Part shown: piece by piece, positions 60,456 to 63,848 of the stretch | How positions within the stretch are numbered: position 1 is the stretch's first letter | How the letters are laid out: each line of letters begins with the position of its first letter | NCBI RefSeq assembly: GCF_009689585.1 | Contig: NZ_AP018694.1 | Coordinates: 3,425,001 to 3,489,000 of the forward strand | Source of the DNA: Aquipluma nitroreducens | GTDB lineage: Bacteria; Bacteroidota; Bacteroidia; Bacteroidales; Prolixibacteraceae | Length of the DNA stretch: 64,000 nucleotides | Direction: 5' to 3' | The notes under the pieces: model-generated | Databases searched by the model: none | What the model was told of the DNA's origin: nothing | What the model saw: the letters and a program-made list of their open reading frames with translations, nothing else | Position numbers and translations under genes: made by a program

Positions 60456-60514
60456 ATCCTGAAAACCCCTGTAAAGTGGGGTTGTTCTTTTTATCGAAAT
60501 TTTTCAAATCATAG

Positions 60515-60547
60515 AAAAGGTCGGAACAATCAATTCCGGCCTTTTTT
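60515..60547 (+). terminator. Terminator after ald
   Basis: Twelve-base stem AAAAGGTCGGAA/TTCCGGCCTTTT with one wobble, then TTTTT. Confidence 0.85.
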
Positions 60548-60568
60548 CATTTTCACCTGAAGGTTTTA

Positions 60569-60599
60569 TTCGGTCAACGAAGTAATTTTTCTATTTTTG
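60569..60599 (+). promoter_or_regulatory. Promoter of valS
   Basis: TTCG (60569-60572), 19 bases, TATTTTTG (60592-60599). Good match to TTTG-N19-TAnnTTTG, with a ~45-base leader to the ATG. Confidence 0.6.
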
Positions 60600-60648
60600 C
60601 ACCTTCGTTTAAATAGATAATCAGGAAATACTCAATAAAATACAAATC

Positions 60649-63600
60649 ATGGATATCCCCAGCAAGTACAATCCCGCCGAAGTTGAAGACAAATGGTACA
60701 AGTACTGGATGGAAAATAAGTTTTTCCATTCCGAACCCGACGAACGTGAACCTTATACCATCGTCATTCCACCACCAAATGTCACTGGCGTACTGCACAT
60801 GGGGCATATGCTCAACAATACCATTCAGGATATCTTAACCCGTCGTGCCCGAATGCTTGGGAAAAATGCATGCTGGGTGCCTGGAACCGACCATGCCTCC
60901 ATTGCTACCGAAGCGCGTGTGGTGAATAAATTGAAGAATGAAGGAATTTCGAAATTCGATTTGAGCCGAGACGTATTTCTGGAACATGCCTGGGAATGGA
61001 CCAACAAACATGGTGGTATCATTCTGGAGCAGTTGAAAAAACTGGGGGCTTCATGCGATTGGGATCGCACTGCCTTCACCATGGACGATGTTCGCAGCGA
61101 ATCGGTTATCAAAACTTTTGTTGATTTGTACGACAAAGGTCTGATCTATCGCGGTGTTCGAATGGTGAACTGGGATCCTGCTGCAAAAACTGCGTTGTCA
61201 GACGAAGAGGTGATTTACCGCGAAATGCAATCAAAACTCTATTACCTGAAATATAGGATAGCCCCCTCTGACTCCCCCGAGGGGGAGGAGAAGAAACCCC
61301 AATACAAGACTGCAAGAAAATCTGAGTATGAACTGTTGAAGAAGAATGCCAAAGAATTACGTCGATTTTCAACTGAAGCTGAAGGAGTTTTATGGGAAGC
61401 TTTAAGAGGAACCCAATTAGGAGAAAAATTCAGGAGACAACATATAATAAATGACATCATTGTTGATTTTATTTGCCTTTCAAAAAACCTTGTAATTGAA
61501 GTTGACGGAGGGTATCACAATACAAGAGAAATTCAGGACTTGGATAAAATCAAAACTGAAATTCTGAATGATCTAGGATATACAGTCATTCGTTTTACAA
61601 ACGAAGAAGTTCTTGTAAATACTGATAAAGTTGTACAATCTATCCAAGATGCGTTAAAAAGCTCCCCCACTGGGGGAGCTGAGGGGGCTGGGCTTTATGT
61701 GACCATTGCAACTACCCGTCCTGAAACGATTCTGGGCGATACCGCCGTTTGTGTGAATCCAAACGATCCACGTTTCACACACCTGAAAGGCAAACGGGTG
61801 CTGGTTCCGCTGATCAACCGCTCCATCCCAATTATTGAAGACGAATATGTGGATATGGAGTTTGGTACCGGCTGTTTGAAAATTACTCCGGCTCATGATG
61901 TGAACGACTATGAAATTGGGTTGCGATTCAATCTTCCAAGTATCGACATTTTTAACGATGATGGTACTCTGAGCGAAAAAGCCGGAATGTATATTGGCGA
62001 AGATCGGTTTGCTGTTCGCGAAAAAATCATGGTCGATCTGGAAGCCGCCGGAAATGTGGCTAAAGTGGAAGATTACAACAATAAAGTGGGTTATTCGGAG
62101 CGCACTCATGTGCCAATTGAACCAAAATTATCAGCCCAGTGGTTCCTGAAAATGGAACCTTTGATAAAACCGGCAACTGAGAATGTGTTGAACGATACCA
62201 TTCAGTTTTATCCGCCGAAATTTAAAAATACTTACCGTCACTGGATGGAAAACATCAAAGACTGGTGCATCAGCCGTCAGTTGTGGTGGGGACACCGGAT
62301 TCCGGTTTATTACTTGGCAGATGGAGGTTTTGTAGTTGCTGATTCCGACGAAAAAGCATTGGCTTTGGCTCAGGCAAAAACCGGAAATACCAGCCTAAAA
62401 ATGACAGACCTGCATCAGGATGAAGATGTACTTGATACCTGGTTCTCAAGCTGGTTGTGGCCAATTTCTGTATTCGACGGCATCAATAAACCCGACAACA
62501 AGGAAATCAACTATTACTATCCAACCAACGATTTGGTAACTGGTCCGGATATCATTTTCTTCTGGGTAGCTCGTATGATTATTGCGGGTTACGAATACCG
62601 CGATCTGTTCCCATTCAAAAATGTATATTTCACCGGAATGGTGCGTGACAAGCTGCGTCGTAAAATGTCGAAATCGCTGGGTAATTCGCCCGATCCGCTC
62701 GACTTGATTGATACGTATGGAGCCGACGGCGTTCGTGTGGGAATGTTACTTTGTTCACCTGCAGGTGGCGATTTGATGTTCGACGAGAGTTTGCCGCAGC
62801 AAGGCGCCGGTTTTGTAACCAAAATCTGGAATTCTTTCCGATTGGTAAACGGTTGGGAAGTAGACTATAAAATTCCGCAGCCTGAACATTCCAAATTAGC
62901 TATCAGTTGGTTTCACGAAAAATTCAGCCAGATTGTGGAACAAACCGACGATCATTTCGATAAATTCCGCATTTCGGATGCTTTGATGAATGTTTATACA
63001 ACTGTTCGCGACGAGTTCTCCGGATGGTTGCTCGAAATGGTAAAACCAGCATACCAGCAGCCAATCGATGGTAAAACATATGAAGAATTAATTGATATTT
63101 TTGATGAAGTTTTGCGGTTCCTGCATCCGTTTATGCCTTTCGTAAGCGAAGAAGTCTGGCAGTTGCTGAAAGAACGCAAGCAAGGCGATAGCATCACCAT
63201 TAGTTCATGGCCAAAATCGACAGGTTACGACGAAACTTTGATCGCTCAGTTCGAAGATGTAAAAGAAGCCATTGCCGGATTGCGCACCATCCGTACCAAA
63301 AACAACATTCCCAATAAGGATCAACTCGAACTGGCCATAATGGTATGCGACAAAGGTTTTGCTCCTGAATTCAATTCTGTTCTGGTAAAGATGGGTAACC
63401 TGTCTGCACTGAACGTGGTGACAGAAGAAGTAAAACTGGCTGCTTCATTTTTGGTGAAATCGACCACTTTCTTTGTGCCGCTTGGCGGAACAATTGATGT
63501 AGAAGAAGAATTGAAGAAACTTCAGGCTGAATTGGATTACACGAAAGGTTTCCTGAATTCGGTAATGAAGAAGCTGAGCAACGAACGTTTTGTAAGCAGT

Positions 63601-63696
63601 GCTCCTGAAGCAGTGGTTGCCACCGAACGCGCCAAACAGGCTGATGCCGAAGCAAAAATCAAAGTTCTGGAAGAACAGATTGCAGGATTGAAATAA
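60649..63696 (+). CDS. valS: Valyl-tRNA synthetase with in-frame DUF559 nuclease-domain insertion
   Basis: ValRS charges tRNA-Val and edits mischarged threonine. The 1015 residues include the HIGH motif as HMGH (50-53), KMSKS (672-676), the editing-site ATTRPET (354-360), the anticodon-binding domain and a C-terminal coiled coil. Family members in Bacteroidota are ~870 residues, and the ~144-residue excess is all at residues ~205-348, between KLYYLKYRI and [12 protein letters not shown], in the CP1 editing domain. That insert encodes a DUF559 endonuclease-like domain (see the element entry). Frame and all synthetase motifs are intact, so a functional enzyme with an extra domain is likely. The ATG start is clear. 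Confidence 0.95.
61260..61287. repeat. Left terminal palindrome of the valS insertion
   Basis: AGCCCCCTC, a short spacer, then CTCCCCC-GA-GGGGGAG. Translated as [10 protein letters not shown] in the ValRS frame. Confidence 0.8.
61661..61689. repeat. Right terminal palindrome of the valS insertion
   Basis: GCTCCCCC-ACT-GGGGGAGC followed by TGAGGGGGCT, inverted relative to the left end. Translated as [11 protein letters not shown] in the ValRS frame. Confidence 0.8.
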
Positions 63697-63721
63697 AGTG
63701 ATATTTGGAATTTAATCGGGG

Positions 63722-63756
63722 AAGGGAATTTTACTATAGGTAAAGTTCCCTTTTAT
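63722..63756 (+). terminator. Terminator after valS
   Basis: Thirteen-base stem AAGGGAATTTTAC/GTAAAGTTCCCTT with one wobble and a TATAG loop, followed by TT. Confidence 0.75.
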
Positions 63757-63788
63757 GTTTTTTAAAGGTTTAACAGACTGAAAAGTTG

Positions 63789-63796
63789 TATATTTG
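63789..63796 (+). promoter_or_regulatory. Candidate -7 element for the ATPase gene
   Basis: TATATTTG, a full match to TAnnTTTG, 53 bases before the ATG. Confidence 0.45.
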
Positions 63797-63848
63797 GATG
63801 TTACCTTGTTAATTTGATTGTTAACATCGAAAAGAAGGAGAAATCTCT
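63797..63848 (+). promoter_or_regulatory. Leader with inverted repeat and Shine-Dalgarno sequence
   Basis: GATGTTA (63797-63803) and TAACATC (63822-63828) form an inverted repeat directly after the -7 element, a possible operator or leader hairpin. AAGGAG at 63835-63840 is a strong Shine-Dalgarno sequence 8 bases before the ATG. Most other genes in this window lack one. Confidence 0.5.

Follow-up and report, generated by a model that had tools for sequence, protein, structure and literature searches.

A candidate homing-like, palindrome-ended DUF559 nuclease element carried in frame within valyl-tRNA synthetase of Aquipluma nitroreducens and within other proteins of Bacteroidota

Homing behaviour is known for endonucleases of the EDxHD class, and two further kinds of described element come close to the locus presented here. 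Rickettsia palindromic elements (RPE) are palindromic repeats that lie in frame within protein genes and are read as peptide; to our knowledge, they carry no nuclease. Repetitive extragenic palindromes (REP) and their doublets (REPIN), found with REP-associated tyrosine transposases (RAYT, or TnpA-REP), are hairpins with a conserved flank that occur in inverted pairs and as dispersed solo copies, together with an associated nuclease. As far as we know, mobile elements in essential genes are thought either to need splicing, as with introns and inteins, or to be very short, as with RPE. Here we analyze valS, the valyl-tRNA synthetase (ValRS) gene of Aquipluma nitroreducens, a member of Bacteroidota, in a stretch of 64,000 nucleotides (contig NZ_AP018694.1, positions 3,425,001 to 3,489,000; the window, below), in which a complete DUF559 nuclease domain with palindromic ends stands in the reading frame of the gene. 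We consider it probable, at roughly two chances in three, that this insert represents a nuclease element of Bacteroidota with palindromic ends and homing-like behaviour, translated together with its host protein and remaining there as a permanent domain.

The valS gene occupies positions 60649..63696 on the forward strand, to which all coordinates in the window refer, as an open reading frame (ORF) of 1015 aa, and is the sole ValRS gene of the 5.71-Mb genome (a third match of the valS search, at 2444516, was under the family cut-off and lies inside a 1182-aa frame). The N-terminal host part (60649..61259) has KLYYLKYR at its end and aligns through residues 1-204 with residues 1-204 of Thermus ValRS, and the C-terminal host part (61690..63696) aligns through residues 345-999 with Thermus residues 205-846. 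Between them the insert (61261..61689) runs in the host frame for 143 codons with no stop and no Met, beginning with Ala-Pro and ending with Gly-Ala, after which a Gly follows. Alignment with related ValRS revealed empty sites, and alignment with Thermus ValRS (1gax) placed the insertion point between the positions equivalent to its residues 204 and 205, nearly all residues in between being insert. A preliminary description of this DNA, made from the sequence alone, had claimed an in-frame DUF559 domain in ValRS that forms a single block of excess length; both claims were borne out, but the length given, about 144 aa, has to be corrected to 139 aa (151 residues between the same anchors vs. 12 in most empty relatives). 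The insert probably lies in a loop of ValRS, a position that rests on the 1gax alignment because the structure model of the full ValRS (predicted local distance difference test score, pLDDT, of 50) was too poor to show surface position; the region in which the pre-insert loop begins is what we take to be the CP1 (editing) domain. Since the same insert is present in several independent genomes, it is very unlikely to be an assembly artefact. A Pfam scan of the full 1015-aa protein gave no match to an intein family and no protein-splicing domain, whereby an intein was ruled out and the earlier distinction from inteins was upheld, and a group I or II intron was rejected on an Rfam scan of 60500-63800, which gave no intron family (2 chance matches up to E 1, both outside the insert). 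The Pfam scan likewise found no Y1 domain in the insert.

The body of the insert is a DUF559 (PF04480) nuclease domain of EDxHD/Vsr-like fold (61336..61656), matched at 116.3 bits vs. a cut-off of 20.6 (E 7.7e-34); the Pfam families matching the insert are DUF559, MTES_1575 and DUF2726. The putative catalytic residues Asp273 (61465..61467), Glu284 (61498..61500), Asp286 (61504..61506) and His290 (61516..61518) are at the positions first assigned to them and are each kept in 40/40 in-gene copies; together with E245 and D299, they are conserved in these 40 and in 24/24 stand-alone rows, a sample of copies from hidden Markov model (HMM) or tblastn searches only, none via the motif pattern, in which degenerate copies may have escaped the HMM. 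Pairwise ratios of nonsynonymous to synonymous substitution rates (dN/dS) of the insert ranged, where computable, from 0.07 to 0.31, and these values indicate strong purifying selection on the nuclease. A profile built from 51 inserts hit 3hrl (E 6e-32) and I-Bth0305I, 3r3p (hmmsearch E 2.8e-7), and a Foldseek search with the AlphaFold model of the insert (pLDDT 81; residues 1-11 and 139-143 below 50) yielded target template modelling (TM) scores of 0.87 for 3hrl, 0.80 for 3r3p (E 4.8e-5) and 0.46 for E. coli Vsr. Hence the nearest solved structure is 3hrl (NGO0050), and the closest characterised one is the catalytic domain of the homing endonuclease I-Bth0305I, which strengthens the kinship with homing nucleases proposed at the outset. 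The Caulobacter DUF559 protein VsrA, which is needed for an SOS response in methylase-less cells (PMC12907096), implies that DUF559 proteins are capable of acting on DNA in vivo.

As previously described, the insert is bounded by exact 9-bp reverse complements, AGCCCCCTC as the left (61260..61268) and GAGGGGGCT as the right outer repeat (61681..61689), and the surrounding 37-nt arms are 73% complementary. The C/G hairpins said to lie inside both repeats are present, namely CTCCCCC-GA-GGGGGAG on the left (61272..61287; 2-base loop, competing with the outer-repeat pairing) and AGCTCCCCCA-C-TGGGGGAGCT on the right (61660..61680), but as single-stranded DNA only the right one folds better than shuffles (z -2.31), the left one being no better (z -0.30). 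The pattern CTCCCCCn(0-10)GGGGGAG was found four times in the 5.71-Mb genome, twice at the insert, vs. none for the reversed control pattern, on which chance repeats were rejected; the complete left end (outer repeat and hairpin, <=3 mismatches) recurs as 3 more solo copies in the genome. We extended the analysis of ends to 125 of the 139 rows of the insert tree described below, 14 being left out for want of the core motif. Hairpins with a score >=18 were found at the left end of 67/94 in-gene elements, at the right end of 66/94 and at both ends of 55/94, vs. 39/711 control stretches from the same loci; for stand-alone copies the figures were 13/31 and 19/31. In 81 of 125 elements both ends carried hairpins of score >=16; within this set the ends matched better inverted than direct in 64 and worse in 15 (for the in-gene elements, 54/68 better as inverted and 12/68 better as direct repeats), and the element's own partner end ranked in the top tenth of all partners in 36/81. 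By eye, the ends share a plan of outer C-rich repeat, short spacer and C-rich/G-rich hairpin with a loop of few bases. These data support the claim that the palindromes of this insert family are inverted and coding, readable as protein in the host frame. The genome also has a second REP family, CCCCTCTCTCGCGAGAGAGGGG, at 14 places, of which 5 cluster around the stand-alone DUF559 gene L003 (G000:C1:3206199-3207171), so that a stand-alone DUF559 is also found among REP-like palindromes; one copy lies in the window at about 936-957.

To follow the site among relatives, we searched 61 genomes, including the present one, for ValRS and read the insertion site in 46/47 loci obtained from several searches (L099 was the locus without a readable site, and L101 may be the second ValRS of a mixed assembly). 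Four allele states were found at one valS codon position: empty, as in L016 and L020 and in same-genus relatives; DUF559 between palindromes, in 17 loci (L008-L015, L098, L071, L108, L110, L111, L114, L115, L126, L132); a single palindrome (L024, L027); and two palindromes with the nuclease gone (L026, L100), L100 resembling L015 minus its nuclease. Palindrome-only alleles lengthen the ValRS loop by 6-25 residues, and same-genus relatives include, besides empty alleles, palindrome-only remnants and other DUF559 lineages at the same codon. When the DUF559 label was mapped on a 46-row ValRS tree, 11 changes were required, with no fewer than 9 forced by well-supported (starred) branches; the total took L100 as empty and is still 11 with L100 as palindrome-only. 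Close relatives are thus not uniformly filled with an insert devoid of palindromes, given that both empty and palindrome-only alleles exist.

Inserts and hosts do not share one history. The ValRS of L010 and L013 are near-identical (dN 0.020, dS 0.47), yet their inserts differ by dN 0.37 at the same site; conversely, L013 and L014 show an insert dS of 0.44 vs. a host dS of 1.67, and L008 and L108 (Mariniphaga) a synonymous-site difference of 63% in the inserts vs. 82% in the hosts. For 17 ValRS rows (2 with partial hosts), the host topology was rejected for the insert alignment (delta lnL 300; p value of the approximately unbiased test, p-AU, 1e-85), and the insert topology was likewise rejected for the host data. 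Because of these contrasting divergences and mutually rejected topologies, we conclude that the insert switches hosts independently of the flanking gene. The preliminary description had proposed a mobile unit, for which the empty sites, the palindrome remnants, the different inserts in near-identical hosts and the rejection of the host tree by the insert tree now provide support. Phage and plasmid collections gave only matches of <60% identity (2 and 39 records). The viral collection yielded 77 relatives, of which the one close match (L192) proved to be a ValRS gene located at the terminus of a contig classified as viral. In this locus (L192 1-3180), a DUF559 insert is accompanied by two palindrome-like peptides (YYIQAPLSPPEGGSWG ... 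YPSLGGVGGG) at a second site of the same ValRS gene.

The search for DUF559 in other genes, a step already envisaged in the preliminary description, revealed related inserts, a large share of them with inverted hairpin ends, standing in frame within numerous unrelated hosts. Scanning one genome of each species, with relatives found partly through the E-D-G-H motif, gave at least 557 of them; the best 80 are all from Bacteroidota by record title, and 70 of these 80 lie in stop-free frames >=300 aa. Together with the loci from the other searches, hosts include ValRS, leucyl- and isoleucyl-tRNA synthetases (LeuRS and IleRS, two sites each), RecG, MetH (two sites), IcmF, MazG, CCA-adding enzyme, urocanase, alpha-xylosidase, ABC-F, a WbcJ-type reductase, a ligase-associated helicase, PseC/LegC-type aminotransferases and several restriction-modification proteins, the aminoacyl-tRNA synthetases being named mostly from conserved motifs. 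Dysgonomonas sp. PF1-14 carries an insert in each of ValRS and LeuRS (L110, L149). The lack of Met held for the valS insert and failed for the family, in that 49/101 in-gene inserts have no Met before the core. When 395 genomes of the class were searched with a profile that describes the in-gene lineage, having been built from in-gene inserts, 153 of them gave matches at E 1e-15. Among the best 81 rows (>=141 bits), 78 were in stop-free frames >=300 aa, from 62/395 genomes, a lower bound since only 10 candidates per genome were scored.

Sites were assigned for 79 of these 81 rows (without the own-genome and G055 rows; 3/79 in frames <300 aa), and 71 copies fell at 12 recurrent sites and 8 elsewhere. 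The recurrent sites are LeuRS CP1 (21 copies, 2 one-sided), a second LeuRS site (11, 2 one-sided), two sites in MetH (6 and 3), RecG (5), IleRS (3), IcmF (2), acetyl-CoA synthetase (8), SiaA-like phosphatase (5), RecJ (3), MutS (2) and TsaB (2). The 20 copies of the last five were grouped by eye from flank motifs among the 28/79 loci that flank similarity had left unassigned, with one each confirmed by NCBIfam; 4 one-sided flank matches were counted as LeuRS, and the recurrence counts include shared descent within genera. Some loci are more complex: the LeuRS of L073 (G111) has, beside its DUF559 insert, an extra stretch NMEKYAEYLLWEYIKKNKLEHEF...LIVEIRSQ that resembles another, divergent nuclease-type insert; L047 (G252, a WbjC-like protein) has several palindrome-like peptides at different places beside the DUF559 insert; and at G248:C1:2655643-2656598 there is a tandem pair of equal-scoring stand-alone DUF559 copies, with similar pairs in G280, G384 and G386.

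On the insert tree, built from 139 copies after removal of 5 duplicates, one side of a branch with a Shimodaira-Hasegawa-like approximate likelihood ratio (SH-aLRT) support of 96 comprises 97/105 in-gene and 10/34 stand-alone rows. Among these 10 stand-alone rows, 7 or 8, judged by eye, directly precede a gene whose start or leader is the right palindrome; L156 carries a frameshift, and L174 is truncated where its contig stops. Host-site labels need 35 changes on this tree vs. 93.4 when shuffled (stand-alone counted as a label), and 38 vs. 108.4 over 183 in-gene-type rows. Constraint to a single clade was not rejected for ValRS (p-AU 0.525), LeuRS-CP1 (0.531) or IleRS (0.575); two or more origins of the ValRS inserts, set aside after this one-clade test, partly returned in a quick tree of the 183 rows. 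Site-specific insert lineages with occasional jumps appear to fit these tree comparisons best. Members of the in-gene lineage are also seen at gene 5' ends: L148 and L175 stand before a probable argC, L151 and L187 before a probable murD, with the right palindrome as the N-terminus of the next protein and the same gene in two genomes each (names by eye). A separate DUF559 clade (L079, L081, L083, L084, L085), mostly in restriction-modification genes (HsdR, type ISP, Mod), also occurs in long frames adjoining palindrome-like peptides.

We postulate that inverted REP-like ends, each an outer C-rich repeat with a C/G hairpin, enclose one stop-free DUF559/EDxHD frame, and that the element, because it is read through in the host frame, would persist in conserved genes as an inserted loop domain and not be spliced out as an intein or intron is. 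Sequence comparison shows empty, filled and palindrome-only alleles at one and the same valS codon, an insert that moves among host lineages independently of the flanking gene, insert lineages tied for the most part to one host site, and a nuclease kept under purifying selection with the putative catalytic residues intact. We speculate that empty alleles are cleaved by the nuclease close to the site, whereupon repair would insert a copy of the element, and that the element may occasionally reach a new gene. The palindromes would serve as ends for excision or copying and also as tolerable linkers, deletion of the nuclease would leave palindrome remnants, and the insert would be retained in the host protein.

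Several points weigh against this scheme. Cleavage, homing and excision were not observed. In the 183-row quick tree, starred branches require LeuRS_cp1 and IleRS_b to change 3 times and ValRS, LeuRS_b and MetH_a twice, so that site specificity is not strict; moreover, the insert trees have only 128-131 columns, with many forks open. A co-conversion tract toward the donor was not visible in 100-bp steps, in a comparison where the donor is unknown and some downstream segments were misaligned. Recurrence of sites could reflect where inserts are tolerated, or descent within genera, and direct repeats fit the ends better in the 12/68 in-gene elements mentioned above. The DUF559 domain of the insert is short, without the extra, long DNA-binding regions that the described EDxHD homing enzyme I-Bth0305I has (PMC3943268). 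Furthermore, the genome has 6 Y1 (HUH) transposase domains, 4 without and 2 with internal stops, so the palindromes could be moved in trans by Y1 enzymes and not by DUF559; these domains lie at six places of G000:C1, e.g. 281739 and 380218.

Such movement belongs to an alternative that we regard as possible, albeit unlikely, namely transposition via the hairpin ends in the manner of REPIN or IS200/IS605, with the palindromes recognised by DUF559 or by a Y1 transposase in trans, the unit entering wherever fold and frame allow it and the recurrent sites being permissive loops rather than recognised targets. Inverted hairpin ends, the 3 solo palindromes of the same family elsewhere in the genome, the Y1 domains, six in number and 4 of them free of stops, the many unrelated hosts, the palindrome-only alleles and the elements at gene 5' ends are all in keeping with it. 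However, 71/79 copies at only 12 sites and insert lineages that cluster by host site speak against it, intergenic copies, in theory the best tolerated, are rare (10/107 rows of the lineage lie outside a long ORF), and the insert itself encodes no Y1 domain.

The homing-like element has also to be weighed against three further explanations. Cryptic splicing of the protein, or a bypass in RNA such as hopping, would leave a ValRS of normal size and explain why essential genes tolerate the insert, whose flanking hairpins might lend themselves to it; we nonetheless find this improbable in the extreme, in view of the missing intein family (Pfam, full protein) and intron family (Rfam, E up to 1), a stop-free frame that makes bypass needless, and palindrome-only alleles whose 6-25 added residues give no room for a splicing domain. 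Hardly any weight is left for an old domain fusion, inherited vertically with many losses and functioning in the host enzyme. Purifying selection, and the fact that many families have an insert at shared positions in LeuRS, IleRS and ValRS, would suit such a history, but it is rejected by the test of insert vs. host topology (p-AU 1e-85) and is at odds with very different inserts in near-identical hosts, with palindrome remnants and with the presence of one element family in unrelated proteins. Just as slight is the likelihood that the domain, mobile in origin, is now retained for the benefit of the host, e.g. as a tethered DNA-damage or anti-phage nuclease: purifying selection, the SOS role of Caulobacter VsrA without methylase (PMC12907096) and the related DUF559 domains within restriction-modification genes speak in its favor, whereas most identified hosts are unrelated housekeeping enzymes and presence among close relatives is patchy.

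A whole nuclease domain apparently stays, unspliced, in aminoacyl-tRNA synthetases, RecG, MetH, MutS and other proteins, and in the titles and beginnings of abstracts covered by our literature search we found no description of DUF559 elements inside genes. If the homing-like reading is true, selfish DNA would have a third means of persisting in essential genes, the occurrence of DUF559 domains inside unrelated enzymes would be accounted for, and there would be a natural record of where large enzymes tolerate the insertion of a domain; the element may also supply the nuclease linked to the C-rich palindromes of Bacteroidota.

Among known systems, inteins resemble the element as in-frame nuclease units in conserved genes with site-biased lineages, but the element has no protein-splicing domain, is apparently retained as a domain and has palindromic DNA ends. 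With RPE, as these are generally described, it shares the in-frame palindromic insertion into protein genes; it differs by the nuclease between two inverted palindromes and by its hosts in Bacteroidota. Flanked hairpins, inverted pairs, solo copies and a nuclease liken it to REP/REPIN with RAYT, from which it is set apart by a nuclease of EDxHD/Vsr type, not Y1 HUH, and by being a coding unit that lies mostly within genes, and subterminal hairpins at both ends recall IS200-IS605, weakly so for the left end of the valS copy. Like the EDxHD homing endonucleases, the element has alleles that lack it and spreads horizontally while keeping to one position in a conserved gene. With I-Bth0305I in particular, the insert has in common the catalytic fold and a significant match of sequence profiles; in contrast to it, the insert has no intron family or splicing domain, its nuclease is fused inside the host protein, and the element has REP-like inverted ends and a short domain without the long DNA-binding regions of I-Bth0305I (PMC3943268). 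Caulobacter VsrA and NGO0050 (3hrl) have the same domain as the insert, and VsrA has an in vivo link to DNA damage (PMC12907096), but both are stand-alone genes and not inserted elements. From these comparisons we lean slightly, and by little more than an even balance, toward a new class of mobile element, widespread in Bacteroidota, of translated, non-splicing homing units with a nuclease between REP-like inverted ends, which would spread horizontally into a few conserved genes, persist as a domain of the host enzyme and represent the EDxHD/Vsr counterpart of inteins and of REP/RAYT.

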